Both the position numbers and the translations under genes were made by a program. From Patiria pectinifera (lineage: Eukaryota > Echinodermata > Asteroidea > Valvatida > Asterinidae): a stretch of DNA of 64,000 nt. The notes under the pieces are model-generated. The model was given only the letters and a program-made list of their open reading frames with translations. It did not search any database and had not been told where the DNA came from. This document shows positions 10,261-63,833 of this stretch, piece after piece. The stretch lies in contig CM057141.1 of assembly GCA_029964075.1 (NCBI GenBank), positions 15,376,001 through 15,440,000 on the forward strand. Reading direction: 5' to 3'. The first letter of the stretch is position 1. Every line of letters starts with the position of its first letter.

Positions 10261-10520
10261 AATCGCATCAACGCAGCTTGTGAAATAACTATTGTCCAAT
10301 TACATGATATACAAATTTATGGACGCGGAACGCGCAAAATCTGAGACAAACAAAATAAAACTATTTTAGTTCAGTTTACAAAAACTCCACAGGGTTTTCT
10401 AAGGGGCGTGGCTAACTCGCAAACGGACTATCGCCAAGCCGTTTGCGAGTTAGCCACGCCCCTTAGACAACATGGTGGAGCCTCGCCGTTTGCGAGTTAG
10501 CCACACCCCTTGGATGGACA
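10260..10520. repeat. R1-family repeat carrying a perfect 28-bp inverted repeat
   Basis: Words such as ATCAACGCAGCTTG, ATTGTCCAATTACATGAT and AAATCTGAGACAAACAAA recur here and in the copies near 40.2, 49.3, 59.0 and 63.5 kb. The terminal word GGGGCGTGGCTAACTCGC is present in both orientations: 10399-10426 and 10439-10466 are a perfect inverted repeat around a 12-nt loop. A third, diverged inverted copy follows at 10484-10513. Confidence 0.7.
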
Positions 10521-11807
10521 ACCCTGCGGTTCGTTGGTGTGACGTCAGTTCAGTTTAAACCACGCCCACTTGCCATTTAAGAAGCATTGGAACCACTTGA
10601 AGTGCAACCCGAAGCTATAATATGGGCGTTATCAATCACGGGTGCGCGCCGGTGTGTGACGTTTTTACTCACGAACCGGATAGGGAGATTGGGGTACCCC
10701 TTCGTCTCATATCGTGCTGGGTATGATACGCGCCTTAGCCAATCGGAATCGACTAAGTTTACCGTAAATCGTGACGTCATTTAATTCCCAAATCAGGACT
10801 TAAACTGTGATTGGTCAAATCGAATGCAGTGTTTTGTAATCAATCATTGATCTCCATCCGGTTCGTTAGTAAAAAAAAAGGTCCTACACTCGCGCGCACC
10901 ACTCAGAACCGGTGTCATATGAAAATCCGACTCCTATGAAAATCGGACCCCTTTTTCCCTTTTATTGGTAAAAGGGAAAAAGGCTTGTAAAACGGCTTTA
11001 CTCAACTCCGGGAAGAGGGGCCAGGAATTGCCTCAGATTGCACCACAGAGCATCTAGAATCCAAAATTTCTCGGGGCCCTTAAGCGGGCCCCGGACCCCA
11101 CGCCGAAAGACATTCGCGCTCCGCGTATTTGTCGTCGGGGCAGGGCAGATGCCCTATACGCATCCTTGCAACAGTTTACAAACTAAGTCTATACAATTCC
11201 AACCTCGACCCCAGGGTGTCGAGCAGTACGCGCCCATCACTACCTGCTCTCTCACCCTGGTATTGGATCATTTGCATGTGCAAGATTTTTGAACACGTAT
11301 GCAAATGAGGAATAGTCTGGTGCCTGCATGTGCGTTACATTATCGTTCGTTTTTGTATGTGGTGTCTGGGGTAAAAAACAGAGTCAATTCGTCGCAGCGC
11401 GAGCACAGCGTGAGTTACGAAAACGCGATTTATTTAATTAAACTGTTACGACCTTATCGAGACAACATGCAGTATCACATCTTACTATAATTCCAGGAAT
11501 CTCTGTCTGTCTGTCTGTCCGTCGATTATCTCCAGAACCGGGCACCGTATGAAGTTGAAAATCGGCGGGTATATTTTTCGGGACAACAGAATGTGCAGTG
11601 CAAAGTTTGAAGTTGTTTGGACCAGCGGTTCTCGAAAAAGCTGCAAAAAGCAGTATTTTCTGAGGCAAACGTGGCAGTATATAGCTTAGAACATAACACC
11701 CGCACGCACTGCCGTTTTTTTCAATTGTTTACGTCATGTTTAAGCTAAAGCGCGCGTGCTCAATATGACGCAAACAATGCAAAAAGGACGGGCACGCGCA
11801 CGTGCAT

Positions 11808-12188
11808 CAGGCGCGGTTCTAGAACCAATATTTTTTTTTGGGGGGGGGGGCTAGCACGGTGGATCCAGAATTTTTTCAGGAAGGCGTGCTGAAATGTTGA
11901 CCGGTTATTTTTTCCAAACACTAAGGCCTCCGAAAATCAATAGTGGGCGCTCATGCCATATTTTCAATGGGGAACGCCAATAAATCCTAAAATCATTCAC
12001 ACTATATTAACTAATGCACCCTTGTCACGGCTATTTCTTCTTTAGGGGGAGAGCGTTCGCTAGTACATCACAATCCTTCTTTTTGCTAATGCAATTTTTT
12101 TTTTTACGGAATTTATTTTGGGGGGGGGCTAGACAAAATTTTTGGGGGGCTACAGCCCCCCCTAGCCCCCCCCGTAGAACCGCGCCTG
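11808..12188. mobile_element. hAT MITE with perfect 8-bp TSD (381 bp)
   Basis: Both ends carry CAGGCGCGGTTCTA in inverted orientation. The 8-bp duplication ACGTGCAT is perfect (11800-11807 and 12189-12196). A CAG terminus plus an 8-bp duplication is diagnostic of hAT. The interior has G-runs and C-runs that can pair (GGGGGGCTACAGCCCCCC at about 12145) and no coding frame. Confidence 0.85.
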
Positions 12189-12827
12189 ACGTGCATTGCA
12201 GGGCGATACATTGTCCAGTATGGGTGAATACTAATGGATCAATGGGTGAAAAGCACTGCATACCATGTTTTCGTATGTACGGGCACATCATTTTTGCAGT
12301 CGACTGAGCGACCATTGTAGGTGGTCGAACTTCAAACTTGGCAAAAATTGTGACGTAAGTGTGCATTCAACCTGTGAAAACAACACCATTCAATCGCGTG
12401 CGTTGTTTGCACGAGCAGTTCTCCAAAACTCTGCAAGTATATGTGCAACCTATACCAGCGGCAAAGCAATTTGCGTTTCCCGAACATGCACATTTTAGAC
12501 GGGCACGTGCATTGTAGGGCGATACATTGTCCAGTATGGGTGAATAGCACTGCATACCATGTTTTGGTATGTACACGGGCACATTATTTTTGCAGTCGAC
12601 TGAGCGACCATTGTCGGTGGTCGAACTTCAAACTTGGCACAAACTTTGACGTAAGTGTGCGTTCAACCTGTGAAAACAACACCATTGAAACGCGAGCGTT
12701 GTTTGCACGGGCAGTTCTCCAAAACTCTGCAAGTATGCAACCTATACCAGCGGCAAAGCAATTTGCGTTTCCCAAACATGCACATTTTAGACGGGCACTG
12801 CACTAGTCTATACTACAATTCAAGGAA

Positions 12828-12829
12828 TC

Positions 12830-12895
<66 letters not shown>

Positions 12896-12896
12896 C
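12828..12896. repeat. (CTGT)n microsatellite
   Basis: About 17 uninterrupted copies of CTGT lie inside the second Helentron-like unit. The third unit has a shorter run (about 13531-13568) and the first only three or four copies (about 11503-11519). The variable length at the same place in every unit marks it as part of the element. Confidence 0.9.
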
Positions 12897-13530
12897 GCCG
12901 ATTATCTCCAGAACCGGGCACCGTATGGAGTTGAAAATCGGCCGGTGTATTGCTCGGGACAACCGAATGTGCAGTGCCAAGTTTGAAGTGGTTTGGACCA
13001 GCGGTTCTCGAAAAAGCTGCAAAAAAAGCTGTATTTTCTGAAGCCTAGCGCGCCAGAATATAGCCTAGAACTCCGCGCACTGATGTTCTTTTCAATTGTT
13101 TACGTCATGTTTGAGCAAAAGCGCGCGTGCTTATGACGCAACAATGGAAAAGAGGTCGGGCACATTGTAGGGCGATAGCACCGCGCACCATGTCTTCGTA
13201 CGTGAGTGGCATGCACGGGCACGGGCACATGCATTTTGTAGTTAACTGAGCAACCATCACTGCACTGTATGTAGGCGGTCGACTGAGCAACTCTAATACA
13301 ATATGGTACCGCCCTACGCCTTACAGTTGTAGGGCGATACCATATTGTCCAGTAGGGGTAAATATCAGTGCCGGGGGTTGACGACATTTTGTGCGTTTAA
13401 CTTGCGAGTGTGCGTTCACACCATTGAATAATGTGCGTTATTTGCACGAGCTGCAGTTCTCAACTGCCCCTTCCGAACACGTACATTTTCGACTGGCCCT
13501 GCACTAGTCTATACTACAATTTAAGGAATC

Positions 13531-13568
<38 letters not shown>

Positions 13569-14980
13569 CGCCGATTATCTCCAGAACTGGGCACCGTATG
13601 AAGTTGAAAATCGGCGGGTGTATTGCTCAGCACCACCGAATGTGCAGTGTCAAGTTTGAAGTGGTTTGGACCAGCGGTTCTCGAAAAAGCTGCAAAAAAG
13701 CAGTATTTTCTGAAGCCTAGCGCGCCAGAATATAGCCTAGAACTCCGCGCACTGATGTTCTTTTCAATTGTTTACGTCATGTTTGAGCAAAAGCGCGCGT
13801 GCTTGATATGACGCAACAATGGAAAAGAGGTCGGGCACATTGTAGGGCGATAGCACCGCGCACCATGTCTTCGTACGTGAGTGGCATGCACGGGCACGGG
13901 CACATGCATTTTGTAGTTAACTGAGCAACCATCACTGCACTGTATGTAGGCGGTCGACTGAGCAACTCTAATACAATATGGTACCGCCCTACGCCCTACA
14001 GTTGTAGGGCGATACCATATTGTCCAGTAGGGGTAAATATCAGTGCCGGGGGTTGACGACATTTTGTGCGTTTAACTTGCGAGTGTGCGTTCACACCATT
14101 GAATAATGTGCGTTATTTGCACGAGCTGCAGTTCTCAACTGCCCCTTCCGAACACGCACATTTTCGACTGGCCCTGCACTAGTTTCATATTAATATGAAC
14201 AAATTGGAAAAGGAAAGGAATGTTTTTGAGAAGGCATGGACGAATGATCGTGAAAACACGTACTGCACGTTGTGAATAACAACACCAAGTACACGATCAA
14301 AATCCATTACTAGCCAATTGCGATATCGAATCAGGACACTATCCAGGGTTTACTATTGGAAACACGGTTGGAAATAAAGTAAGCACTGGGGACGAGGTTG
14401 ACACAATTCCTTTTCAAAAATAAGCACGAAAATAATTATACAGACGAAAATACTTGGTTATAGGCCTACAAGTGAAGAACATAAGAAACTTAAAAGGCTT
14501 GTTAACAAATTAAGAGTATAATATAAACCAATGAAAAAAATCCTTATAATCTTAAAACGTTTTGCTCAAATAACTCAGGGGAAAAGGGGCCAGGATTCCC
14601 CTCAGAATGCACCACAGAGCATCTAGAATTCTAAATTTTCCGGGACCCTTAAGCGGGCCCCGCGGACCCCACGCCGTAAGACATCCGTGCTCCGCGTTAG
14701 GCTTCTCGGAGCAAATGCCCTAACGCATCGTTGCAACAGTTCACAACCTAAGTCAATACAATTCCTTTTCCCAACTAAAATGCAAGAAAATATAAAGACG
14801 AAAATACATGGTTTTCGACTTTCAAGCACACAAAGTAACTTAAAATTTGTAAAAGCAAGAGTATATATTTTTTTAAAATCCTTATAATCTTCAAAACTTT
14901 TGCTCAAGGAGCCAGGAATCGCCTCGGATTGCACCTAGAATTAAAAATTTAGGATTTTGGACATCCCCCATACCCCAGTC

Positions 14981-15167
14981 GCCGGTGTAACGTGAATATC
15001 CGACTCCATGAAATATGGACTCATTTGGTAGTATTGCGCATGCGTAAGTATGATAATATCCTATTTATAGCCGATAGGAGAGTTACTTGTCACGTGTGAG
15101 GGATTAACCAATAATAGGGAAAAGGAGCCCGATTTTCATAGGAGTCGGATTTTCATATGACACCGGC
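14981..15167. mobile_element. short MITE with ~38-bp TIRs (187 bp)
   Basis: Left end GCCGGTGTAACGTGAATATC and right end (inverted) GCCGGTGTCATATGAAAATC are variants of one terminal repeat. The left half of the same terminus is also found at 10909. Flanking duplications are not clear. Confidence 0.6.
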
Positions 15168-15435
15168 ACAGATAAACGCCACTGATATATGCACGGCATC
15201 ATTTTGGAACTCGTCAGTGTCTTTTTTAGTTCTCGGTGTAATCATTCTTGCTTGGGGAAAATTTCGTTTGCGAAATGCTACCCTCGATCGTAAATCGTGA
15301 CTGTGTGGTCCCACTTTACAGGCGGCACTGGGTGGGGGGCTCATTTTCTCAGGGAGGGAGTTTCAAATGTTTTTTTTTTTTAAATTATTTGACCGCGGGT
15401 GTCACAGGGATTGAGAGGAGGTTGGATGGATGGGA

Positions 15436-17403
15436 TCATGGCTTGCTGATGACTATTGCATCCAAGTCAATGTTCAGCAGTAGGCCTATGGCCTCACTTT
15501 TGCTCTCGGAGCAGTCGCTGCTTGCAAGATACTCCATCATGGATCTCTGTACGTCTTCGGCCGCCGCCTCCTTGAAGTGAACGGTTTGGGTCAGGAAATC
15601 CACCAGCAGGCTGCCTTCCTCGGAAGCTTCGTCGAAGCACTTGGTGATGTCCAAGAACTGGGGTTTGTGAAAATGAGTGTACGGGATGCCCCGGCTGTCC
15701 AGAACGCTGCGTACGAGAGCCGCGTCGGTGTACACGAATCGGTGTCGGAAAGATTGCAGGCGATTCCAGAAACGCGCGTGACCGCTTTTATCTATTAAAA
15801 AAAAATAAAAATAGAGATTTTGGCCTGAAGTCGTGTTTCATGATTCCCGCAGTTGGAAAAAAATATAGTAAGGCCCAATCGGACGAAGAAGTTTACCCAT
15901 TTTTCACAACGACTGGAAAATAACAACGGGAAAAAAATGTGTAAATCAGAAGAAGATTAGCGGGAAACATACAACTTAGTCAAAGTATTGACTGGTTTTC
16001 CTAGTAAGTTAAAGCGCAAAGTTTCATACTATGACTATAGAAAAAGTACTTGCATTTGACTCCAATTTTAGTTATAACTATTTTTTCTACATAGTCAATA
16101 ACACTACTCTACTGGAAAATCTATTCAGATTGACTGATTTTCAGTTGCACTCAACTGACCCAAATTGCTAGTCAAAATGTTTCGGGACCGCAATGGAAAA
16201 AAGTCTTTAAATTTCTTTTTTTTTGTTGCGTTATCCCTGATTTTTCCACTGTATGTGGGACTGTGACTCTCTATGTTTAATTTTTAATTTACAGTTGTAG
16301 ATAATTATTATTATTTTTTTAATCCTAACTAATCTGTATCATTATTATGTGGAAATTGCGAGTAGGGCCTAAATCATATCAAATAAAGAAACTAGTCAAA
16401 TCTGACTATTTTATTTTTTTTAGAGTGTAGGCCTATAGGGGCACTATTCATGGTGGCATTGCGCAAAACAAATTATCCACTTTCTCCATTGTTTACTGAA
16501 CTTTTAAGATTTTCCTTTAATTTTGAAGTCCAACGAAACAAAGATCTTTTGTAAATTACCTGATCTCAGAACGACCAGCATTATTCCGCCCGGTTCCAGA
16601 CGGTCGTACAAATACATCAACGAACTCTCGTCTACATAGTAAATGGAGTGAATCGCACTGATGAAATGAAACTTCGCAGAATCTCCCGCCTTTTCGTACT
16701 GCTGAATCGTCTGCTGCCGCCACTCATAATAGAGACCTTGCAGTTCATGTACCTCGGATTGTGCGCGAGCCTTGTATTGGTCTAAAAGCCTTGGATTCGG
16801 CTCAACTACACGTTTGTTGATTCGTGGGAATCGCTTCGAGAGCATATTCAACACCGGAGAGTCCATTTCCCCTAAAAAAAAAATAAAAAATAATATTTGG
16901 AGAGTTGATTTCAAAATGACAGAGGAAAAAATCCGTCGATAATTGGAGTAAAATTAATGTAGACATTGTTAATAAAATTAATGAAAACAAAACATTTATT
17001 GACATTTCTCGATCTCTGGTAATTTTGTAAGTGCGTTCACGTGTTTTGGACTGTGTTCACGAGTAAACCGGCGTTAGGCCAAAAAAATTTATTCTGCTTC
17101 CGGTTTCATTACCTACCCTATTCTGACAGCCCCTACCCTAATTTTGTTTGTGAGAAAAATGAGCACAAAACACCCAAAAACCATCAATTTCTACCCTTAC
17201 CCACCTGATCCACTGCCCACTCCCAGGACCCGTACCTCTTCTTGTCCGTCCAGTGTGAGTTTACCAACCACTGCCTCGCCGAGCACACCGTCCACCCACC
17301 CAGGGAACACGCTGAATTCAGAACAGCGATCGCGGAAGATTTTGAACGACTTGACGTAGTGGTCTGGATCATCCGTCAGATCGTGCCATAATCTTGGCTC
17401 CAT
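15436..17403 (-). CDS. histamine N-methyltransferase-like methyltransferase
   Basis: A complete three-exon gene of 288 aa (human HNMT is 292). Exons are 17205-17403, 16560-16871 and 15436-15791, with G|GTGGGTAAG and G|GTAATT donors and TTTTTTTAG and TAATAG acceptors; both junctions keep phase 1. Exon 1 ends in the SAM-binding glycine motif VLGVGSGSG and exon 2 completes it (EMD), with VVEP (Glu90) for the adenosine ribose. HFISAIHSIYYV aligns with HNMT motif IV, and the C-terminal LLVDFLTQTVHF and AIVIS segments are also family-like. Compared with human HNMT from memory, Glu28 is kept (Glu29), but Gln143 is His141 and Asn283 is Ile, so the substrate may not be histamine. No signal peptide; cytosolic. 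No AATAAA was noticed close downstream. Confidence 0.85.
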
Positions 17404-32600: not shown

Positions 32601-35600
32601 CCTACCGCTAGACCACACATGCCCACAAGTTAGCTAAGGCTGGTTGAACGCAAGTGATTATTGCATTTTTTTGGTGGTTTCATAATACCAGAGTCCATGG
32701 CAGTCCGCCTTATCAACGGAACCACTCCCAACTCAGGCCGGGTCGAGATCTACTACAACGGCGAGTGGGGGACCATCTGTGGACTGAACAGCTGGTCGCT
32801 CACCGACGGCCAGGTGGTGTGTCGCCAGCTAGGATACGCATCCGCAGTGGCCGTCAAGGGTTACATGGAGCCATTCGGTCGCGGCTACGGATCCATCCTG
32901 TTGTCGTTTGTGGATTGCGACGGGCACGAGGAGAAACTGGGCGACTGCCGTCACGAGGGATGGTACCAGCACAACTGTGACCATTACTATGATGTCGGGG
33001 TCATCTGCAAAACATCAAGTACGTGTCTGTTTAGTTTCCGCCTTGCGCTTGCCAGTGATAGAGACCTGTTGCATTGGCGAAAACAAACTCCCTGAATCCT
33101 GCAAAATCCCGCGCCAATGACTGTCAGTATGTTGAGGCTTTTTTTTTGGCCAGTGACATCCTGGAGCAGTTCGGAAGACTTTAAGCATAATCCAGGCCTA
33201 TATTTATGCATGGCTGAGCAAAAACAACACAAGGTCCGGCCCAAGACCTTGACAAAGTGCATCCTACACAATCAGTAACGCACTTTTGCCATGTAACCTC
33301 AATCCTCCAAATTCCTCCACTTTTGCAAAGAGGATTTTGAAGGATTCAGGGCGATTAGGGTTAATGAATTAGTTCAGTTCAGAAGCCATTTTGGATAATG
33401 ATGTCTTAAGATGTATCAAAGGTTGATGCTTACCTTAAACTTGGTTAATTGCAGAAAGTACCACAAAAAAACCAATACGACTTCATTTTGTAAACAGTTG
33501 GAATATCGAATTAGCTTATAGTATTATCAAGCTACTCCAGAATTTGAATAACTCGGTGGATATTTTGTAACCATGAGACAAATCTCTGATGAAATTTCCC
33601 CCAATCCAGATGAAACTGGCATCCGACTTGTCGACGGCCCGTCGCAATATGAGGGGCGAGTGGAGCTGTACTACAACGGCGAGTGGGGTACAATATGCGA
33701 CGATGGCTGGGGCATAGAGGACGCGCGTGTTGTCTGTCGTCAGCTGGGCTACGGGCCGGCCATTTCAACCGGGAGGACTTACAGCCAGGGTCAGGGTGCC
33801 ATACTGCAGTCTGATGTGAATTGTCATGGTTGGGAAACCTCGATCATGGACTGTGACATGCCACGCTGGTACCCATCTACAGCGGGTTGCCATCACCATG
33901 AGGACGCCGGGGTGAAATGCGACGTACCAGAAGGTATAAACGAATCCGATTTTGAAATTAGAGTGATGGTTTGGTGTGCCTGTAATCATGGTAATGGGGC
34001 GCTTCCATGCCTGAGCGCTCTTTGCAGGTGCATTCTGTTAATAGCGTTTTGCTCCAAAAAGGAAAGTCATGTTATGCGTAAGTTTAGCAATTGCAACTTA
34101 ATAACATGTACCTATGGAAAGTTGAAGCCAATTGCCGTGGACGTGTGTGTAACAGTCCACCTTAGTCACATAATTTGGGTGGGGCCTTAGCAGCCTAATG
34201 TCAATTTAAACGAACTACCTATTTGGGAGAAGAAACTCTGAAACAAAATGGCAAATCCTTCATAAAATTATTGATTCAAAAAGGTTTGCTAAAATATAAA
34301 TACATACTTTCAACATGTCATAAATACTGATGTGGTAATTAACAACATCTTCTTACAGAATTTAGTTGAAAATCTCTGCCAGCACGTTTTCATTTTCAAG
34401 CTTCTTTTTAAAAATAGACATAATTACCAATGCCTTGGTGGATATATGGGCTATGTAAGACTCTGGTATTATTAAGAGCCTTACTTAAAGAATGCTACTT
34501 TTCAAATAAACCACTGAGGAATACTGACTAGGCACATTCACATTATCATTTATGAATCTGCCAGATTCATATCCAGGAGTCTGACTCCTTTTCTGGCCAC
34601 TCTTCTGTCACTACCCACAGAACCATTGGTAACATCACTTGTAACACCTCTAATGTCATATATCTCATTTCTTGCAGGGTCTGTGGAGTGCAGTATGTGG
34701 GTGAGACTAAGAATACGCTCAAGAAGCGTTTCTATGCCCACCGGTCAACGGTCAACTCCAAGAAACTAGACACCCCTGTTGGTCATCACTTCAACCTGCC
34801 TAACCACTCCATTTCTGATATGATTTTGCAGGGCATTGAATCTCTTGGCCATCGCAAGGACTCAGTTCGCCTCAGCAGAGAGAAAGTGTGGATGAATCGT
34901 CTTCGAAGTATTCAACCACATGGTCTCAACATCCAACTTGGAAATGATTATAAATCCTTTTCTTCCTCCATTGTCTTCTGTTACAGATAATCCACCTGGT
35001 CTTCCTTGTTTGTGTTTACCCATCTTCCCCCATCTTTCATCCCTTTCCACCTCCATACTGTTTCCCCCCCCCTCATAATCCCCCTTCACTCTCACACTCT
35101 TTTGTCCGCTCCCACTCCCTGTGACCTTTGATCCTTCCCCTTTCTGGTCCCTCCCCTGTTTATACCAGACCCCTTGTGGTTTGCCACCTCCCTTTGTTTC
35201 TTTGTTCTCTCATCCACCCTCCCCTGCATCTTTCCACACCTTTCCCACCTAATCCTCCTTTTGTGTTTCTTCTTTCAGCCCTGCATGTTTGTGTGCACCC
35301 CCATGTTAATGTATGTACCTCTGTCATTTCTGTTTTAGCCTCTGAAGAAGAACTTGCTAAGTTCGCAACGTCAGGCCACATTAATTTTTAGATTTAAAAA
35401 AAAAGAAGTAAAGTTGAACAAAGACTGCTGACTGAAGTAGGGTTTGAACTTGTGACCTCCGGATTGCTGTTCCAGTGCTCTACCAACTTAGCTGCCTGAA
35501 ACCGTGCTACAACAGGGCTGGGCAGCTAAGTTGGTAGAGCACTGGAATGACAATCCGGAGGTCGTTGGTTCCAACCCAACTCAAGTCAATTTCCTTTTTA

Positions 35601-49027: not shown

Positions 49028-52000
49028 TTACTGGATTTCTTTCAGGTATCTAATGTCGGTGTCAGCCAACTTCTGGAGTTGTGATTTCACGAAGGCTACG
49101 TCCTCATCGGAACACTCTTTGATTGCTTCATTGCTCAGACCTGTAAACGGGAGGAAAGATGAAACAGTTGCTGATACTTTTCATGTACAAAAATACATCA
49201 CTTTTCTATTATCATTCTGGTTTATTAAAAATTTGAAACAGGCAGCCACAAGGCTGACATTGCAAAATTACATATATACGAATGGACGTGGAACGTGTAC
49301 AATCTGAGATGAACGAAACAGAACACACACAAATTCCATAGGGTTGTCTAAGGGGCGTGGCTAACTCGCAAACGGCGATGGGTCAATATGAAACTTAACA
49401 GGGACTTTAACCCCTAGTGCTACATGTATTCAGTATAGGCTACAGTTGATATATATAGAAATGTTTCTCCATGTGCAACTATCAGTTCATCTGAGTTACA
49501 CAATGCAGACCAGATATAAAAAGAACATAAACAGTAATTGATCAAGTTCGGTTTACTAATGTTAGAATGTCAAGATAAGAAAGGAACTCTAAAATTTGAA
49601 AGGGTTTTACCACGTATTCAAATGCATATAACGCTATACATATATTTGCTGATACTTTTCATGTACAAAAATACATCACTTTTTTATTATTATTCTGGTT
49701 TATTAAAAATTAGAAACAGGCAGCCACAAGGCTGACATTGCAAAATTACACGGAGTGAAAAGGATAAATTCAAACAATTAAACCAAACATTTAAACAAAA
49801 TAAACTTGTAAAGTAACATTAGGTACATAAGTGAATGTACTAAAAGATCTTGACCCATCTAATATTTAAAAGCCAACAAAAACAAACGAACAACTGACAA
49901 TAGACAAACACACGAACAGCAGACCATGGGACAGATTCATAAAGATGAACTAAACTTACACAGGGCAGCCAGACAAACACTGAACCGACCGACCAACTGA
50001 TTAACAGATAGGCACAGATAGACAAGCTGACGGACTGACCGAGACAAGCTAAGACACGGCCCGCCTGACAAACAGACTCAGGCAGACATACAAAACGAAA
50101 ACAAACGCATCCATTACGACATCAAACTTTCAACAAACAATCACGAGATGTTTTGACTGCAAAACAAGATCTTCTGACAATGCGTTCCGGAGCTATTAGA
50201 AAACATTTTTTTTGATGGGAGGGGGAGACCGGGGGTATTGTCCTCCCCGGTCCTGATATGCCAAAACAAAATCCTAAAGATTTCACCGCCCGAAAATATA
50301 TGGAAATTTGACATTTAGGCTAGGAAAGCCCAACTGCATTTTTCTAGCGATATTACTGTGCTTCCGAACCAAAAATGAATTGTAAAACAGTCTGTATTCC
50401 ACCGCAAGCAAAATATGTTCCCTTCCTATTTAGATTACAGTGCAGTATTTATACAGTATGTCCTCAAAAAAGTGTCCGTCTGACTATTTGGGTTTTTTGT
50501 TTTAAATAACTACAAAATCATGAAGTCGATTTTTAATTTTTGTTGATTGTGCAGATACTCCTTATAACCCTATATGAGTTTCATTTTATTTCAGTCACGC
50601 ATCACTGAACTTTAGGCCAAGGATAAGGAGTATCTGGGAAAAAAAAATCAATATTGACTGCATAGTTTTATAGTTATTTTAGAAATAGTCAGACGGACAC
50701 TTTTTGGGGACAAACTGTAGAGGAATCTGAGCCCCATTTCAAAAACGGGGCTTTGCGACATCGTACCTGTGCCTATGATTATAGTCTCCAAACCAGTGCC
50801 TTTGTTCGGTGGAAACTGAGCTTGCATAGCTCCCATGACCCCAAGGGTAGAACGCTCCTGAACCCAGTCGAGTTGTCCTTGCGAAAGAGGGCGTTCCAGG
50901 AAGTTTGCTATCGAGGCAACGGTTGGTTGGAACCTCTGGGCACGAAATCAGGATATTGATACAAAATGCAATACTTCAAAGGTACAATTATCATCTGAGG
51001 AGATCCTGCCCGTTTCCGAAAAAGTCTGACGTTTTCCGAATATTATTATGTACGTTGACAGCCGGATATTTGCGTTAGCTGTTTTTTCCCCCGGATGTAA
51101 AATGGTTTTATTCACTCCGTGACGGCGAGTAGTCTATGAAATAGACTATGGCGGAGCCATGGTCTATGATATTTGAGCAGATTCGCTGATTAATTATGCA
51201 AGACAACCGCCAGTTGACCTGTAGATTTTGACCAATCAGCGGGCGCTTTCTATTTCGGGTCTTCGGTCATTCACCTGTTGTCGCGTCATAGGCAAGGATA
51301 CAAAAATCTAGACACAGCAACAAAGGCTGTGGTCTTTATTATGTTACGCGATACGCGCGCCCGGCCGTTGTTGTATTACAAACCATTGCATTCGAATTGA
51401 CCAATCAAACATTGAGTCCTGATGTGGGAATGACGTCATGGTTTAGTAAAATCGACTCTGATTATCTGAGGCGTGGGATCGCATAAATATGCATGCTTAG
51501 ACATATCAGACGTTATACGGGGACTGGGCTCCGTGGATAACCGATGATACGAGGGGTGTATATTTAATTTTTAAAACTACCATGCTCTTTCAAGCAATCT
51601 AAGGCAATTTGAGAATATTTAGGAACTTTGTGCATTCTGTTTATTATTTAGGCCCCATTTTACCAGTTTAATGTTAGTCAGCGACTGACCATGTTTTTTT
51701 TTGTTTTTTTTGGGTTTTTTGGTGGGGATAGGCACCCCAATCCGCCACTGGATCTATGGAGGGCAGGAAGCTGTCTTGAACACATTGATTTCAGTAAGTC
51801 TATTATATTAAATTCTTGGTTTTTTTCAAACTCGTATAAGAATCGTGAGAAATGGAGGGGAACAAATTAACGGGCTGGGGAACACTTTGACCTAGGTAAT
51901 TCTGTCCCCGGACAGCTTTACCGGGGGACAAAATTACCGTCTACACCGGCCTTATCCTTCATGAGCTGCTGGATCTCAATCAGGGTGACCGTTTTAGCCG

Positions 52001-55000
52001 ACTTTCGGCTTCGGCAAACTTTGACAGAATTGTTGTTAAAACACGAGTTTGACAGAAAATTTGACAGAATGGATTTATTTGGACAGATTTCTGGCAGAAT
52101 TCCGCAAAAATGGTTATTTGACAGAATAACAGCAAATTTGAACAAAAAATTGTGCATTCGTTTAAAAAGCTTCAATCCTTTCAAACAAACCCTTGCATAA
52201 TGGGACAGGTCGGCTGGTCTAGGTGCCGAGGTTCACTGGGTTTACGGACTTCGTCGTGGCCGGATCCACGCTTTGCCCGAAATTTATTAATAATTTCACA
52301 ACATCTTTATGTGACTAGATTGTTTATTATGTACTTTGAACTTTAATTATAAGTGTTTATAGTGTATTTCGAGTAATTCTTGGGAATTTGGCAGATTTTT
52401 GATAAATCTGACAGATTTTTGATGTGCATTTAGCAGAATTTGGCTCTGGTCTTACGGTCACCCTGATCTCAATCCTGTCTCAATACATGACTTTAATTTT
52501 TATATAACACGTAAAGTATACAGCTTACCTCTTTGAGGTCTTCATAGTAAACGAAGAGAACATTTTTGAGATTTCGTCTCTCCCAAAAACTTCTTACATG
52601 AATGATCCAAGTACCCAAATGTGCTGGTTTGGTGAAAAAAAAATGAAAGGGTTATTAAAATGTATTGTTTTTTTTTAATCAATTGTGACTTTTCAAAAAA
52701 TATATTTTGAGATAAAAAATAATTAGGAAACATAGCCTATGACAATTTAGAGAAAATTGTAACGTCCTTTAAATTATCTCGGTAAGTCAAAGCGAAACAG
52801 CGGATAAGTCATCTACGACGAGGAGGTAGTGAGCATTCCTTTTGTTCACTATCGACAAATAGACAAATCGTCATCGGCACAACGAACGGACACTCACGCG
52901 TGTAGGTGTCAGTTCGTGAATACCAAATTATCAACAATTTCCGTTTCACGAACCGACACCCGGTAGTGCGCGCGCATCGGACGCTGGTGCAAATAGGAAG
53001 ATTTTCGTTTTCACGAAATGACACCCAAGCATGATGCGGCAATACAGAACAGAGAAAAACGGTTTGAACGGTTTTACACGAATGTAATCCATCCGTATAC
53101 TTGTGTGTTTACACAAAAATTTAATTAAAAAGCTTTTTAATTGGTGAAATTAAGGTCAGTGTCAGTTCTTGAAACCGAAAATGTAGGCCTACAGGGTGCG
53201 CTCTAAAAGTGCCGCACTGTGGCGGATGTCACTATATCCTGGTTCTGTAATTACGCGCGCGTGCATGCGCACTCACGCGCAACTGGAGTGTCAGTTTGTG
53301 GTCCCCCCCAAAAAGGACGTACAGTCTGTTGTGGTGCCCGATCTTGAATCTGCGGCCCCTCAACCGCTTCATAAAACCGTTTCGTATGGACACAGTCAGA
53401 GTTGTCCTCGACTCTCTTCCGGTCCCTTGCTTTGCCGCCTTCCTGGATCTCACGGACGCATATTTACACGTTCTAAACCACCCGACCACACCAGGTTCCT
53501 TCGGCTTTTCTACGAAGGTACCACAAACAAGTTCCAAGGCCCCTCAGGTCTTCCCCAGAATTGTGAAGACGCCGGCCAGTGCCCTCCATTGTCAAGGCCT
53601 ACAGGTGTTAATGTACCTCGACGATTGGCTCTTCATCGACGAATCGCGGGCATCAGCTGCTCACGTCCGCAGTCCGCCAGACCTACTCCCTTGCCGAGGG
53701 CCTGGTTTTCCTCATCAACGAGTCCAAATCCAAGCCAATCCTGTCAACTGTCCACTTATCTAGATGCCGTCCTCGGTCTTCAACGGGGCGCGGCTTACCC
53801 GACACAGGAGTGAATCGCCAATGTTTGTCAATGCGCTTATTCCCTCCTCATAGAACAACCAAGGCTCCAGCGCTGGTTTGGTTGCGATTCCTCAGCCTCC
53901 TGGCGAACGTTACGTCCATGGTCCTACCCTGTATCCTAGGTGGTACCGTGTTCACTGCATATCCAGCCACATCGCCGGTGGTGGATCCAACCGGACAATA
54001 TCACGCAGGGCCTTTGCTTACAAGCCTCTCGACCTACCGTGACCATCACGACAGATGCGTCTCTGCTGGGTTGGGGCGCGGTGCTGAAATCTCACCAAAT
54101 GGCGGGTTCATGGACTTAAGCAGAGACCACCCACCACATCAACTTTCTTGAACTGACAGTATTCAACACCCTTCACCGCTTTCAAAGCATGGGCCTGCCT
54201 GGTAAATCTGTTCTCATCCCGCTACGACAACACGACTGTGTCACCGTGGGGCAACCTGTCTGCCTACGCTTTTCCACCGATCTCCCTATACTTCCCAAAG
54301 TACGCGGGAAAATTGAGCAAGACCCATGCATGAAGGGTCCTCCTGATTGCCCCTTTTTGGCCTCGTGGTTTCCACGACTTGTCCGCCTTCTCTACCATGT
54401 CCCGCTCCTCCTCCTACAACGGCCAGACATTCTTCGTCAGCCTCTCAGTCGGGTCTGCTTCAGCCCGATCCGGCGAGCCTCCACCTGACGTGCTGGCCGT
54501 TGTCCAGCGTTCCTTCAGACACGCTGGGCTTTCTCAAGAGGCTGCCGCCATCGCGGCCCGTAGTCGGCGTCAGTGCAGTCAACCCGAACTGTTCACGCGA
54601 GCCGATTACAACATTTCTATGGTTCAGACGGCGTGCGGTGGATCCCTTCCCTACAACTCTTTTTCTTCTCCATCTCTTCCAGTTGGGTCTTGAGGTTCGC
54701 ACAGTCAAGAACTATCGCTCCGCAATTGCGCCTGTTCATCCAGGTTGCTGGGAGGGATCTTCGATATTCGATTGCACCGCCCTCACTCACCTTCTCTGAG
54801 GCATGTATGTTTCACGACCCCCCAATGGACACTCTACAGTCATGGGATCTTGATCTGGTCTTACAAGCTCGCGTCGGCCCCCTTTTGAACCTCTGTGTCA
54901 GGCTACTCTTCTGAAAATTTCCTAGAAAACGGCCTTCCTCGTGGTGACAGCAACAGCCCGCCGCCTGAGTGAATTCCAGGCCCTGACCATTATGTCAAGG

Positions 55001-58000
55001 ACCGTTGGGAGCCCGCTGGGGTCCGCCAGATCCCCCATGGCTCTTTCCTCACAAAGAACCAGTCGGCGACATTCTCCCCGCTTGATATTTTTGTTCCTGA
55101 CTTAAACTCCTCTTCTGTTCCAGAAGACAAGCTCTGGTGCCCTGTCCAGGCCCTCAAGTGGTACCTCCATTGGACTGCACTGATCCGCGGTGACCACCAG
55201 GCTCTGTTCGTTCATAACCACGATTTCACCGCATCGTCCAGCATCCCGCGATACGATGGGTCGTGACGGCCATACGACTGACGACTGCTACCCTGGACAA
55301 AGCCCACGAAGTTCGGAGCGTGGCGACTTCTTGGGCCTTCTTCAAAGGAGTACTCCATGCGGACATCATGCAAGCGGCATGTTGGAAATCCTCCAACACC
55401 TTCACCTCCTGTTATCTCAGGGATGTGTTGCATGCAGACGGCAGAACCGGTCGCGCAGCCCTCTCTACTGCCCCAGCGGCGCAACCGGATCCGGTTCCTC
55501 CGATCCTCCGCTGGCGCCCTGCAGTATCGACCAGTGACGGCTTATCCCATTAAGGTGATAGCTGATTCCTCTGGTTTACCATAAGGCCAAAAAAAAGAAG
55601 TCTCCGGTTTCTGGTATGGAGCTTGCCCCAAAAGTGGTGCGGCGACGCGGCTTTTTTTTTTTTTTACCTGTTTTTTTTTTTTTTTGGCTTCAAATGTCGG
55701 CTGATGACTGCAAATGGTGCCCGACTAAACTTAGTGCAAATATATGGGAGTCCAGAGAGGCCACATAAATCTTATTCTCGATCATAACCCCTTCTAAAAA
55801 TACGTTAAAATTGTGCAGCAGCAGAATTCCAGTCAAACCAGCGAGTTTGGCGGTTTTGAAACATCATCTTGTATTGAAAAAAAAAACGTTTTCATTTTGC
55901 CGACGCGCATGGCTACGGCGACGCGCGCGCATACCAGAAACCGGAGACTTTTTTTTTTTGGCCTAAGTGGGTTTAATCATGTTGGCTCAGGGCTCACGCT
56001 TCTTCGCGGCCCACCTTCATCGTGCACTCTCATCTCGTACGCAAACCCACCCACGTACAACGGTGCTATTCTGCAGTAGCAATACTCTACATGTACGGTG
56101 AGCGCAGTAGAATTCCCCCACAGAAGTGTGGGCCGATTCTACTAGCGAATACTTACCCTTACATTGCCCACCACCCGCTGTGGGCACTTTGGGCACTTTG
56201 GGCAGTACATCTTAGTGAATGGCTAGCGCCCTCTATGTAATATGCATAATGAAGCAATACTCTACGGGTAAGTAGTATTCGCTAGTAGAATCGGTCCCCA
56301 CTTTGACGCATGTAACAATATCAACAAAAGTAGTATGCAGTGGTCTAGCACAAACGACAAACGTATGACAATAGCGTCGCAACAACAAGTAGTCTGAACA
56401 CGATATCAGTGTTTGCCTATGAAAAATGAATGTTTGTCTGACTGACTGACTGACTGGCGAAGCCGCCTCCCCCGCCGCGCAACGGTCGAGGTGAAGCATG
56501 ACATCGCCCTTGTAAAAAAAAATCATACTTAAGTATTACTGTTTTACTTACTCTGTTTGGGATCAAAAGACATTTTCAAATATGTAGAAAACGGTGGGAA
56601 ATCGCTGAAGATTCTCGAATTCAATCTGAATCCAGATTTCTTGACGTCGATTGGGTTTCGTATCACGTAGATTATCTAGGCAGTGGTTGAGAAAGAGGAA
56701 TCGTTCTTCAAAGATGAACTGTCACTACGGTTATCAAGTTTCAGATGAAAATCGTGATTTCTTGTGGAATTGTTATCTTTCTAGCCATAAAAAATCATTT
56801 TTTTTATCGAGACATGAATGAACACATTTTCGAATAGTAAATGCAGTCGTAAGGGGTATTTTTTTTTCATTTGACTCGGGTCAGGCTCAGGCGTTACTAC
56901 GGCGGATGGACATGCCCCATTTAAATCTTGAATTGAACAGAAGTATGATTTTTTTCACAACTTTATGAAAAATGTGTGCACCCCCACGTTCCCCTCAGAA
57001 GTTCAACCCTAGTTATGCCACTGGGTACGTCTTTAATGTCAAATCTACTTCACAATCATAGTTCATGAAAATGAGGATTCCTGGCCCGTTGAGCTATACT
57101 CACGCAGCGAAACTAAAACTCACAAAACGTTCACAAGGATAGGAGTAATACTCGTCAGGTACCTTGACTCCATCGGTGTTCCAGAATGACTTTGGCACGT
57201 GCGTAGCTGGGAGATGAGTGTACAGGACCCTTGGGCGATCGGTCGGCAGTTCTGCTACCACCTGGTACCCCATACGTCGCGGCGCGTCGGGATTTGTCAC
57301 AGCAGATATCAATACTGCTTCGAAAACCGGAGAGGTGAGAGATTGAGAGTCGGTTCCCAAGATGAGGTTGATAATGCGTAGCATCCAGTGTGTACCTGGG
57401 GGAAAAAAGAGGACCGGCAGCTGGGTTGTAGAATAAATGCTGATGAGCAAACACGTTACTTAAAAAAAACATTATACAAAAATGCTTCAAACTGTGCGAA
57501 AAATTTTCCCCAAAATGCTGACTTTATTCCATCTATTGAATCAGAAAATACGAACCGTTACTTTTACGTGAACGTGTCTGGATTGAATAGTGCTACAAAG
57601 TTTCCTTTTTTGTGGGGGGGGGGGTTGCTGAAATACAATAAAATATACCTCTAACCCCGTCCAGTGGTGGATCTCGGGGACGATTGCCAGGGGCGTCAAT
57701 CGCCTCTCAAAAATGCCCCCCCCCGTCTACCACCGATTGACGCCCATGATGATTGCAACACCCCCCCCCTTCCCCCTTCAGCAGCTGACTTATGTAATGA
57801 TACTAGTAAAATGGGGCCAAAATAATAAATGGAATGCCAAAGTTCCTAAATGTACTCTGGAAATGCCCTAGCATGTAGGAGAAAGCATCGTATATTGTAA
57901 AATTTACCCTAAGATGACGCCTTCACTCAGCCACCTTCATATCAATCCTCCCCCTCCCCGTTTCCTGAAAGCTAAATCCAAGTATAGCCTTATACGCGCA

Positions 58001-60074: not shown

Positions 60075-60160
60075 ACCAACCTCGTGCCCCGTGGGTACGA
60101 TCATGCAGCGCCATATTGTTTCCCATCATGCCTTGCGCGATCGTAACCCCTGGAATTGTG
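60075..60160 (+). repeat. dispersed repeat, paired with 61104-61180
   Basis: AACCTCGTGCCCCGTGGGTACGATC, GCAGCGCCAT and TTGTTTCCCATCATGCCTTGCGCGATC occur here and at 61104-61180. The pair brackets the TIR element at 60581-61096. Confidence 0.7.
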
Positions 60161-60580
60161 TAATATAAAAGTGCCAAAATACGGTACATTATAATTAGGG
60201 CTGCAGTTTATCCGTTTTACGTGCCGACGCCATCTTAAAATGTTAAAAGTTGTGATTTTGAAGAATCAATCCTTTCAAACACAACGTGTGGACGTTGTGT
60301 TAATTAGCAAAGATTTGTATTAAATGTACGTACCCCTTTCGTGCCTTTACAACCACAGATACAGGGTTTTTTTTTTTACCGAAAAACGCGGCTGACATAA
60401 TCCATATCGTACAGGCATCATGACTTTTGAATCCTAATTTTTTTTTTCGTACGTGACGTTACGTGCAAAGCACGCGAGCGCATTATGGGGGCGCCCGGCG
60501 TGCAATCTTCGAAATGCGCGCGCAGTACGCTGTGAGTAGCCATTCAGCGTAATTTACGTCATCATCACAGCCAGGGGTCA

Positions 60581-61096
60581 GTCAACCTCGTCCCCAGTGC
60601 TTACTTTATTTCCAACCGCGTTTCCAATAGTAAACCCTGGATAGGAAACTTTCTTCCTGTATCCTGATTGGATACCGCAATTGGCTAGTAATGGATTTTT
60701 ATCGTGTACTTGGTGCTATATATTCACAACGTGCAGTACGTGTTTTCGCGATCATTCGTCCACGCCTTCTCGAAAATACTAATTTCCTTTCCAATTTGCT
60801 CATATTAATATGAAATATGATACTGCATGTTGTCTTGATAAGATCGTAACAGTTTGATTTCAAAAATCGTGTTTTCGTAACTCACGCCGTGCTCGTGCTG
60901 CTACGAATTGACTCTGTTTTTACCCCAGACACCGCATACAAAAACAAACGCTAATGTGTAACGCATATCCAGGCACCAGACTGTTCCTCATTTGCATACG
61001 TCTGCAAAAATCTTGCACATGCAAATGATCCAATACCAGGGTGAGAGAGCAGGTAGTGGTGGGCGCGTACTGCTCGACACCCTGGGGACGAGGTTG
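60581..61096 (-). mobile_element. TIR element with 7-bp TSD, uninterrupted copy
   Basis: GTCAACCTCGTCCCCAG and CTGGGGACGAGGTTG are the inverted ends; GGGGTCA is duplicated outside (60574-60580 and 61097-61103). The reverse complement matches 11200-11480 plus 14184-14402 and lacks the 2.7-kb Helentron-like array, so it preserves the empty site. No transposase. Confidence 0.8.
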
Positions 61097-61406
61097 GGGG
61101 TCAGTCAACCTCGTGCCCCGTGGGTACGATCTTGCAGCGCCATGTTGTTTCCCATCATGCCTTGCGCGATCAGAAGAGGAAATTGAAACGGATAAAATGT
61201 AGAAAAAGACAGAACACCATGCCACAACCCAAACCGAAGTATGCGGATTTCCTGTCACCAGGGGATCGGTGTTAGGTACCCCCTGAAGACATCGGTGATG
61301 TCTTGACCTTTCCAGGGGTCAGGCGACTTTAACCCTACCTAAGCTAACAGGACGAGTTCAAAACTGATCTGACACGGGTAGGGGAGGAGGAGGTAAAGAA
61401 TAGATA

Positions 61407-63833
61407 GCAGTTCTGCTACCACCTGGTACCCCATACGTCGCGGCGCGTCGGGATTTGTCACAGCAGATATCAATACTGCTTCGAAAACCGGAGAGGTGAG
61501 AGATTGAGAGTCGGTTCCCAAGATGAGGTTGATAATGCGTAGCATCCAGTGTGTACCTTGGGGAAAAAAAGAGGACCGGCAGCTGGGTTGTAGAATAAAT
61601 GCTGATGAGCAAACACGTTACTTAAAAAAATATTATACAAAAATGCTTCAAACTGTGCGAAAAATTTTCCCCATAATGCTGACTTTATTCCATCTATTGA
61701 ATCAGAAAATACGAGCCGTTACTTTTACGTAAATGTGTCTGGATTGAATAGTGCTACAAAGTTTCCTTTTTTTGTGGGGGGGGGGGGGTGCTGAAACACC
61801 ATAAAATATACCTCTAACCCCGTCCAGTGGTGGATCTCGGGGATGATTGCCAGGGGCGTCAATCGCCTCTCAAAAATGGTCCCCCCGTCTACCACCGATT
61901 GACGCCCATGATGATTGCAACACCCCCCCCTTCCCCCTTCAGCAGTTGACTTATGCAATGATACTAGTAAAATGGGGCCAAAATAATAAATGGAATGCCA
62001 AAGTTCCTAAATGTACTCTGGAAATGCCCTAGCATGTAGGAGAAAGCATCGTATATTGTAAAATTTACACTAAGATGACGCCTTCACTCAGCCACCTTCA
62101 TATCAATCCTCCCCCTCCCCGTTTTTTGAAAGCAAAATCCACCCCTGCAGCTGCCGTCACCCTACGATTGACGCTCATGGGGGAGGGCGGTAAGTTACTT
62201 AAAGCCCAGTTTCCATATCGACGTGAGAATCGCAAAGTTAAACGCAAACAGGACCCAAACTACAACGCAGACATATGGAAATTTCATCCGGAAGTGTTGC
62301 CAACAGCTGTAGCTGTCTGCGCAGTCTGCGTAGTTTTTAGGAAGACCTCCTATATGTTTTGTACACGATCGTCAATCGTGGACCTTCGGTCTATTGTGGA
62401 CCCTATCGTCCTCTATTGTTCAACGTCCACAATTTGAATATGCAAACAAGTATAGCCTTATACGCGCATTATGCCTATGGCAAAGACCTTTGTTTCTCTT
62501 CTTTTATTTTCCTTTGTTCCTATTAAAATCTCGATCTCCATAGCCTTTACACTTGTGGGGTAGATTGATTTCGAAAGACTTCCTTTATTGTTCCATTGTG
62601 ATTTATACCCAATAAGGAACCCTGTACATGTACACCTTTGTAAACACCTTCAATGGTGGACCTCCTATTGCCCCTATTTTGTGCATAATTCCATATGTTT
62701 TGTCCACACACCTCAAAAGTGGACCTTCGGTCAATCGTGGACAACCGTTGTCCTCTTTTGTTCAAGGTCCACTACTACCCCCTACACCCAGTCGTGTTAT
62801 CATATACTTATGAGGACCTCCTATTGTTCCCTTCTTTTGTTTCCATTGTTTGCACTTTTTCTCAACATCTCCCACAAGGTTTGTACACGAAAAACTCCCG
62901 AGGACTTAACTGAAGTCCTCGGGTTATTGCTATCACAAATCCCCCATTGTCCCAAGTGCAGTCGTAAAAGATAACAAGATCAGATGGTCCTGTCTTTGCC
63001 TCTGATGTTGCTGCTGCATGAAATCAGTGTATTGAAGGCTCTACTCCATTTAAAAAATAAACTATTCATAAATCTTGTGGGATCCACTGCACTAGATTTA
63101 ATCGTTCGCAATAATGCCTAGGTGAGATAGTACTTAACTTGTCCGGCCCGACAGCGCTATAGCACGTATTGATCAAACTGGGTCTTCATGTACATGCACG
63201 AACCGATGTTTTCGGTGTTGATGTTTTGATAAACATTTAAAAATTGTTTTCAAGTTTGGATGGAATTATTTCCTTAAGGCTCTATGTATTACCGAAAATG
63301 AATCAGTTTGAATGAAATATAGGCCTACCGTTTTTATTCGGGGCTAGAAAAAAGTGGGAGGAGGGAGGGGACAAATAATGTGATGTCCAACCATTTTAAG
63401 AAGTGGGGAGGGGCATTTCGCCCGTCCCCCACCGATTGACCTATCGCCGTTTGCGAGTTAGCCACGCCCCTTAGACAACCCTATGGCATTTTTGTACGAT
63501 AAGTTGTGTTTTTCTCAGATGTTGCGCGTTCCGCGTCCGTCTTTCTATTCTGTATCTGTGGTGTAATTGGACAAGCTCCGTTAACGCAATTCTATCGCGA
63601 TAGGTCAATTATTGACGCCCATGTTCCTGCACATGCAAGGTTTTATAACCAATATGCTTTTGCTTATACGTACCACTCCTCGAAGTTGTTGCCACGCATA
63701 TATCGGATGGGCGGGCTTGAAAAGTTTCAATTTCATCCCAGCAATCAGGAGGAATAAAACTTGAATGAAATGTCACACCTCTATGAACGTACATAAGTTT
63801 CTCCCAATTTTCCATCCTCAAAGGTTGGGCCAT
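61407..63833 (-). pseudogene. truncated sulfotransferase duplicate
   Basis: Exon 1 (63674-63833) is intact, with the same start and G|GTACGT donor, and differs in a few residues (MAQPLR, TTSRSG). Exon 2 keeps its acceptor (start 61556) but breaks off at 61407, losing 83 nt that encode the catalytic VLYTHLP region. No later exon follows before the complete gene. The intron has extra sequence at about 62140-62450. It is probably a dead partial copy. Its exon 1 ends in the right phase to splice to the complete gene's exon 2 at 57395, so it could act as an alternative first exon. Confidence 0.75.

Follow-up and report, generated by a model that had tools for sequence, protein, structure and literature searches.

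The segment at 10909-15167 of the window (the whole 64-kb stretch of DNA analysed here) is a real nest of non-autonomous mobile elements inserted one inside another. A hAT-type MITE lies within the first unit of a Helitron-type block, the block interrupts a MITE with terminal inverted repeats (TIRs) that begin CAACCTCG, and this TIR MITE interrupts one unit of a ~355-bp tandem repeat. Our reading, with a probability of about 0.88, is that unrelated non-autonomous DNA elements of an animal genome inserted here step by step. It is a genuine, readable and ordinary piece of genome history, made of known kinds of element. Nested MITEs are already known; the value of the present locus is that the ends and target rules of three families of short elements can be fixed together, which would be useful for annotating the genome. 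No sign of a host function was noticed for the nest in the sequence.

The layers were delimited by comparing 10500-15300 with the whole window. In this self-comparison, 11199-11491 matches 61097-60804 (90%), 14183-14402 matches 60815-60581 (87%), 10988-11200 matches 14553-14765 (82%), 12772-13516 matches 13473-14192 (93% with gaps counted) and 10909-10972 matches 15166-15104 in inverted orientation (92%). Chance is a poor explanation of these alignments, because they score 76.8 to 912 bits whereas the best off-diagonal score in 20 synthetic windows with the same base-to-base frequencies was only 36.8 bits. For the target duplications (TSDs), random pairs drawn from the window were exactly equal in 246 of 2,000,000 draws of 7-mers and in 108 of 2,000,000 draws of 8-mers. 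Wherever the first-pass annotation had given coordinates, the junctions fall within one or two bases of them; the corrected positions are 11480-14182 for the Helitron-type block, 11200-11479 and 14183-14400 for the two halves of the TIR MITE, and 11808-12188 for the hAT-type MITE.

Interrupted sites and order of insertion

The tandem repeat is present on both sides of the TIR MITE. On the left, a partial unit (10988-11199, + strand) ends in the target copy ATACAATTC (11191-11199). On the right, self-comparison and pairwise alignment define a full unit at 14403-14757 (+ strand, phase arbitrary), followed by a partial one at 14758-14960 (+ strand, right limit approximate). The full and right partial units are identical at 149 of 203 aligned sites (local alignment, 68% over 206 columns). 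The right unit retains the uninterrupted MITE target, AATACAATTCCTTTT, with ATACAATTC at 14756-14764. Joining the left part, 10988-11199, to 14410-14560 gives a sequence identical to 14553-14920 at 267 of 340 sites. The earlier claim that the TIR element sits within one unit of a tandem repeat, with the neighbouring unit as the uninterrupted site, is thus borne out.

The TIR MITE itself measures 498 bp in two halves. The left one (11200-11479, + strand) is defined by self-comparison and by an insert-free copy at 60.6 kb, the right one (14183-14400, + strand) by self-comparison and pairwise alignment. That second copy (60583-61096, - strand) is devoid of the Helitron-type block. Alignment of the joined halves with its reverse complement breaks within one or two bases of the junctions given in the first-pass annotation, with 460 of 496 sites identical and 5 gaps (20 columns). 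The 60.6-kb copy had been taken as the state of the element before the array arrived; it does represent the element without the block, but as a sister copy and not as the nest locus before insertion. Solo copies of each layer were sought within the window at E up to 1e-3: the TIR MITE has one, and the other layers have no match beyond the nest.

The inverted ends of the TIR MITE span 15 bp and match at 14/15 positions in the nest and 15/15 at 60.6 kb. In the nest, its flanks ATACAATTC / ACACAATTC, the latter read at 14401-14409 (+ strand) from the printed junction sequence, match at 7/7 or 8/9 positions. The 60.6-kb copy is flanked by GGGGTCAGT on both sides (9/9), so a 9-bp duplication is likelier than the 7-bp one first proposed, even though seven of seven bases do agree in the nest; a 7-bp duplication with two extra bases at the right end also fits there. 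A TSD of ~9 bp is a Mutator-like (MULE) feature. With its 15-bp inverted ends and 7-9 bp TSD, the element may be a Mutator-like MITE, a candidate label that follows the TSD length.

The hAT-type MITE (11808-12188, + strand) is 381 bp long, and the earlier description of a hAT MITE with an 8-bp TSD inside a rolling-circle unit is confirmed. Its inverted ends, CAGGCGCGGTTCTA, match at 14/14 positions, and ACGTGCAT flanks it on both sides (11800-11807 and 12189-12196; 8/8). The 8-bp TSD and short TIR are those of a hAT MITE, and the inverted ends begin with CAGG, which we take to be the hAT end motif. The hAT label is a candidate one, given on TSD length and this end motif to the single copy in the window. 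The second core repeat of unit 1 carries the uninterrupted site, GGGCACGTGCATTGTAGGG, with ACGTGCAT at 12505-12512. A point against the nesting scheme is that unit 1 carries six more bases (ACGCGC) before the site, which are absent from the second core repeat. In units 2 and 3, the site takes a form that lacks several bases.

Together, the interruptions and the paralogous empty sites give the order ~355-bp repeat, CAACCTCG MITE, Helitron-type block, hAT-type MITE. The empty sites of the MITE and of the repeat were examined by alignment, and that of the hAT-type MITE was read from the printed sequence; all are paralogues and not earlier states of the nest locus itself. No gap opened at the junction even with joins off by one or two bases, and the alignments were then redone with exact joins. 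The first-pass view that the order of events can be read directly holds for these four layers, but its single arrival of an array and its outer enclosing layer are not established.

Divergence decreases in the same direction, with 73 of 340 sites different between ~355-bp units, 36 of 496 between MITE copies and 11 of 672 between units 2 and 3 of the block (Fisher p = 4e-9 for the repeat versus the MITE copies, and 1.5e-6 for units 2-3 versus the MITE copies). This ranking agrees with the nesting order, divergence between paralogues being a mix of age, subfamily differences and exchange.

The following history is proposed. The ~355-bp tandem repeat was already in place when the TIR MITE entered one of its units with a target duplication of 7-9 bp, presumably by cut-and-paste. 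Helitron-type DNA next entered the MITE, at an insertion point between A and T that is visible in the sequence and shows no target duplication, probably by a rolling-circle route. Judging from divergence, the spread of the MITE family most likely came before the tandem copying, by unequal exchange or by reading through the 3' end, that gave the pair of units 2 and 3. The hAT-type MITE entered unit 1, either before or after this doubling.

The 60.6-kb copy of the TIR MITE has neighbours of its own. It adjoins a sequence at 61106 that opens with the same nine bases, CAACCTCGT, and a second copy of this sequence lies at 60077. The two (60077-60188 and 61106-61216) are direct copies, 81% identical over 115 columns, which start with CAACCTCGTGCCCC, the first nine bases of the MITE; a 9-bp target copy separates the MITE from 61106-61216. 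Further on, the 94 bases at 61407-61500 are 100% identical to 57246-57339, 4.2 kb away, in a match cut by the end of the query. This identity may reflect a recent duplication or a young repeat.

Outer inverted pair

An inverted pair brackets the repeat block. Its left arm (10909-10972, + strand) starts with CCGGTGTCATATG and is identical to the inverse of its right arm (15104-15166, - strand) at 59 of 63 sites, with one gap, as defined by self-comparison and pairwise alignment. The outer TIR pair of the first-pass annotation therefore exists as an inverted pair, but it has no clear TSD, and its right arm is also part of another sequence. This sequence (14982-15166, + strand) is a MITE-like, self-inverted stretch of 185 bp whose right half is the right arm. 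It aligns with its own inverse at 63% over 193 columns (E 2e-6); between its halves, 58 of 79 aligned sites are identical and 27 further columns are gaps. Its inner end carries the same end motif as the outer pair, with 4 mismatches in 26, and its flanks contain no exact duplication longer than 3 bp.

As a whole, 10909-15167 could be a single transposon bounded by ~64-bp TIRs, in which the tandem repeat forms the interior and the other elements are passengers. We consider this a serious but tentative reading, somewhat short of even odds. The arms are near-identical, inverted and positioned at both limits of the repeat block, and by eye the nine bases beyond them agree at 6/9 positions (CACTCAGAA / CACAGATAA), an agreement reached by 1.3% of 400,000 random pairs, with no correction for how length and ends were chosen. 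However, with ends placed up to three or four bases from the arms, the flanks show no exact duplication longer than 4 bp, the best being CAGA with asymmetric ends. In addition, the right arm doubles as half of 14982-15166, which carries this end motif too, so the pair is equally well explained by two independent MITE copies of which the left is truncated.

Just outside the left arm, 10641-10900 is a possible separate inverted repeat that stops 8 bases short of the outer pair. Its ~50-bp arms align at 77% and 38.3 bits, hardly more than the synthetic maximum, and a second copy of its interior (10731-10840) is present at 51375-51473 (75%, 74 bits).

Composition and identity of the Helitron-type block

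The block lies in the TIR MITE without target duplication: the filled MITE reads CACA/TC...CTAG/TTTCATATT and the block-free copy CATA/TTTCATATT. It comprises three units on the + strand. Unit 1 (11480-12806, TC...CTAG) measures 1327 bp including the hAT-type MITE and has two internal core repeats of ~300 bp, identical to each other at 271 of 289 sites. Unit 2 (12807-13507) measures 701 bp. Unit 3 (13508-14182; 675 bp) ends with CTAG before T. Units 2 and 3 are identical at 661 of 672 sites with three gaps, the largest of which is in the microsatellite; seven of the 11 differences fall within alignment columns 100-200.

Unit 1 is of another kind. It shares a 5' block with unit 2 (230/261 identical, 31 different) and unit 3 (229/264, 35 different), and its last bases are common to both. 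On the other hand, its core differs from the other units by 46-60% in three 100-column bins, and overall only 438 of 624 aligned sites are identical between units 1 and 2. The unlike core and the 31 differences in the 5' block rule out a uniform three-unit array. Judged by sequence, unit 1 is another subfamily than units 2 and 3, and the block a mixture; a single arrival as an array is not established. The three-unit array of the first-pass annotation survives as a block inside the TIR element, but not as an array of like units. The shared 5' block of units 1 and 2 is also somewhat more diverged than the MITE copies (31/261 versus 36/496, p = 0.04), so some of the differences in the block may be older than its insertion. 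Between the two core repeats of unit 1 (18/289 different), divergence does not differ from that between MITE copies (p = 0.66). Both parts of the block have precedent, since the part of PMC4067079 drawn on here reports tandem Helitron arrays, ascribed to a bypassed termination signal, as well as distantly related Helitrons directly adjoining one another.

Units 2 and 3 could also have arisen in place by unequal crossing over or slippage, with no rolling-circle step. Their near identity favours such an origin, and the clustering of differences in columns 100-200 hints at patchwise exchange. Their junction, CTAG/TC, is exactly end to end, as read-through predicts, but exchange between adjacent units also preserves it. 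We hold an in-place origin to be plausible, at rather less than an even chance.

As to the kind of element, the portion of PMC4067079 used here characterises canonical Helitrons by TC...CTRR ends, insertion between A and T and a palindrome ~11 nt from the 3' end, and attributes subterminal inverted repeats, a 3' palindrome and a preference for TT to Helentrons and HINEs. According to part of PMC7492417, oyster HINEs carry a short microsatellite and tandem core repeats and lack a TSD. The ends found here follow the canonical Helitron rule, with CACA/TC...CTAG/TTTC in the nest versus CATA/TTTC at 60.6 kb, at one site only, where a TT reading is also possible; a single shared T is all that separates the two readings. 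No subterminal inverted repeat rose above shuffles in units 1, 2 and 3 (191, 99 and 190 of 200 shuffles as good; first 45 versus last 130 nt, ungapped), and folding of the 5' end is weak or absent (-0.5, -0.7 and 0 kcal/mol, respectively). Where canonical Helitrons have a palindrome of 16-20 nt, unit 3 carries an imperfect 3' stem that stops 11 nt before its terminus (z -3.4, 0/200 shuffles as good); unit 2 has a weak one at the same distance (z -1.8, 7/200), and none was found in unit 1 (z -0.3, 66/200).

Helentron-type units (HINE/DINE-like, T^T), with unit 2/3 inserted at the T^T of the 3' end of unit 1 and the block growing by successive insertions, are an unlikely alternative. As in HINE, DINE-1, bivalve Pearl and Cg_HINE, so far as the consulted portions of PMC4067079 and PMC7492417 describe them, there is a TCTG-type microsatellite near the 5' end, with internal tandem core repeats, no TSD and tandem units. 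If the ends are taken to be C...CTAGT at T^T, each of the two insertion points agrees with TT, and the different subfamily of unit 1 is in line with successive insertion. Unlike those elements, the units lack a detectable subterminal inverted repeat, have a 3' stem only in unit 3 and weakly in unit 2, and show TC...CTAG at A^T, which fits the one testable MITE junction. The Helentron-like label of the first-pass annotation is thus not supported by the ends. We chose the label Helitron-type and assigned no branch: the ends fit a canonical Helitron, and a T^T Helentron reading is possible. More doubtful still is the idea that a rolling-circle element landed at the 3' terminus of a resident of another subfamily and then doubled, such that element ends would be preferred landing sites and mixed arrays would grow stepwise.

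Precedents and surroundings

No general view is altered by the nest, as tandem Helitron units are already known (PMC4067079, in the part consulted). Deriving a chronology of transposon activity from nesting is likewise an established approach (TinT, PMC3014933; interruption analysis, PMC2517846). As far as the sections used here describe them, those methods also take activity order from nesting, but they use many nestings genome-wide, whereas the present case is one locus. The end sequences of the elements had no match in a full-text search of the paper library used. Pattern scans of viral_contigs for relatives gave 0 matches, which is uninformative for an animal repeat.

About 0.3 kb from the nest, an ORF at 15436-15837 (- strand) matches residues 177-290 of a 292-residue histamine N-methyltransferase (E 8e-8); a Pfam scan with a cut-off of E 0.001 assigned it no family. 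Given its strand and the C-terminal position of the match, the nest probably lies just downstream of a methyltransferase-like gene.

Elsewhere in the window, overlapping ORFs at 53187-54799 resemble, on visual inspection, the decayed remains of a DIRS-type reverse transcriptase; the sole piece scanned, 53251-53763, had no Pfam match. The ORF at 34556-34990 contains a GIY-YIG domain (Pfam E 1.5e-6) and may belong to a Penelope-like element. The ORF at 33552-34190 matches an SRCR domain, and other ORFs in the window look alike by eye. As a guess from the methyltransferase and SRCR matches, the host could be amphioxus or a different invertebrate deuterostome. At gathering scores, Rfam returned one match only, outside the nest: a tRNA at 35516-35588 (47.2 bits).
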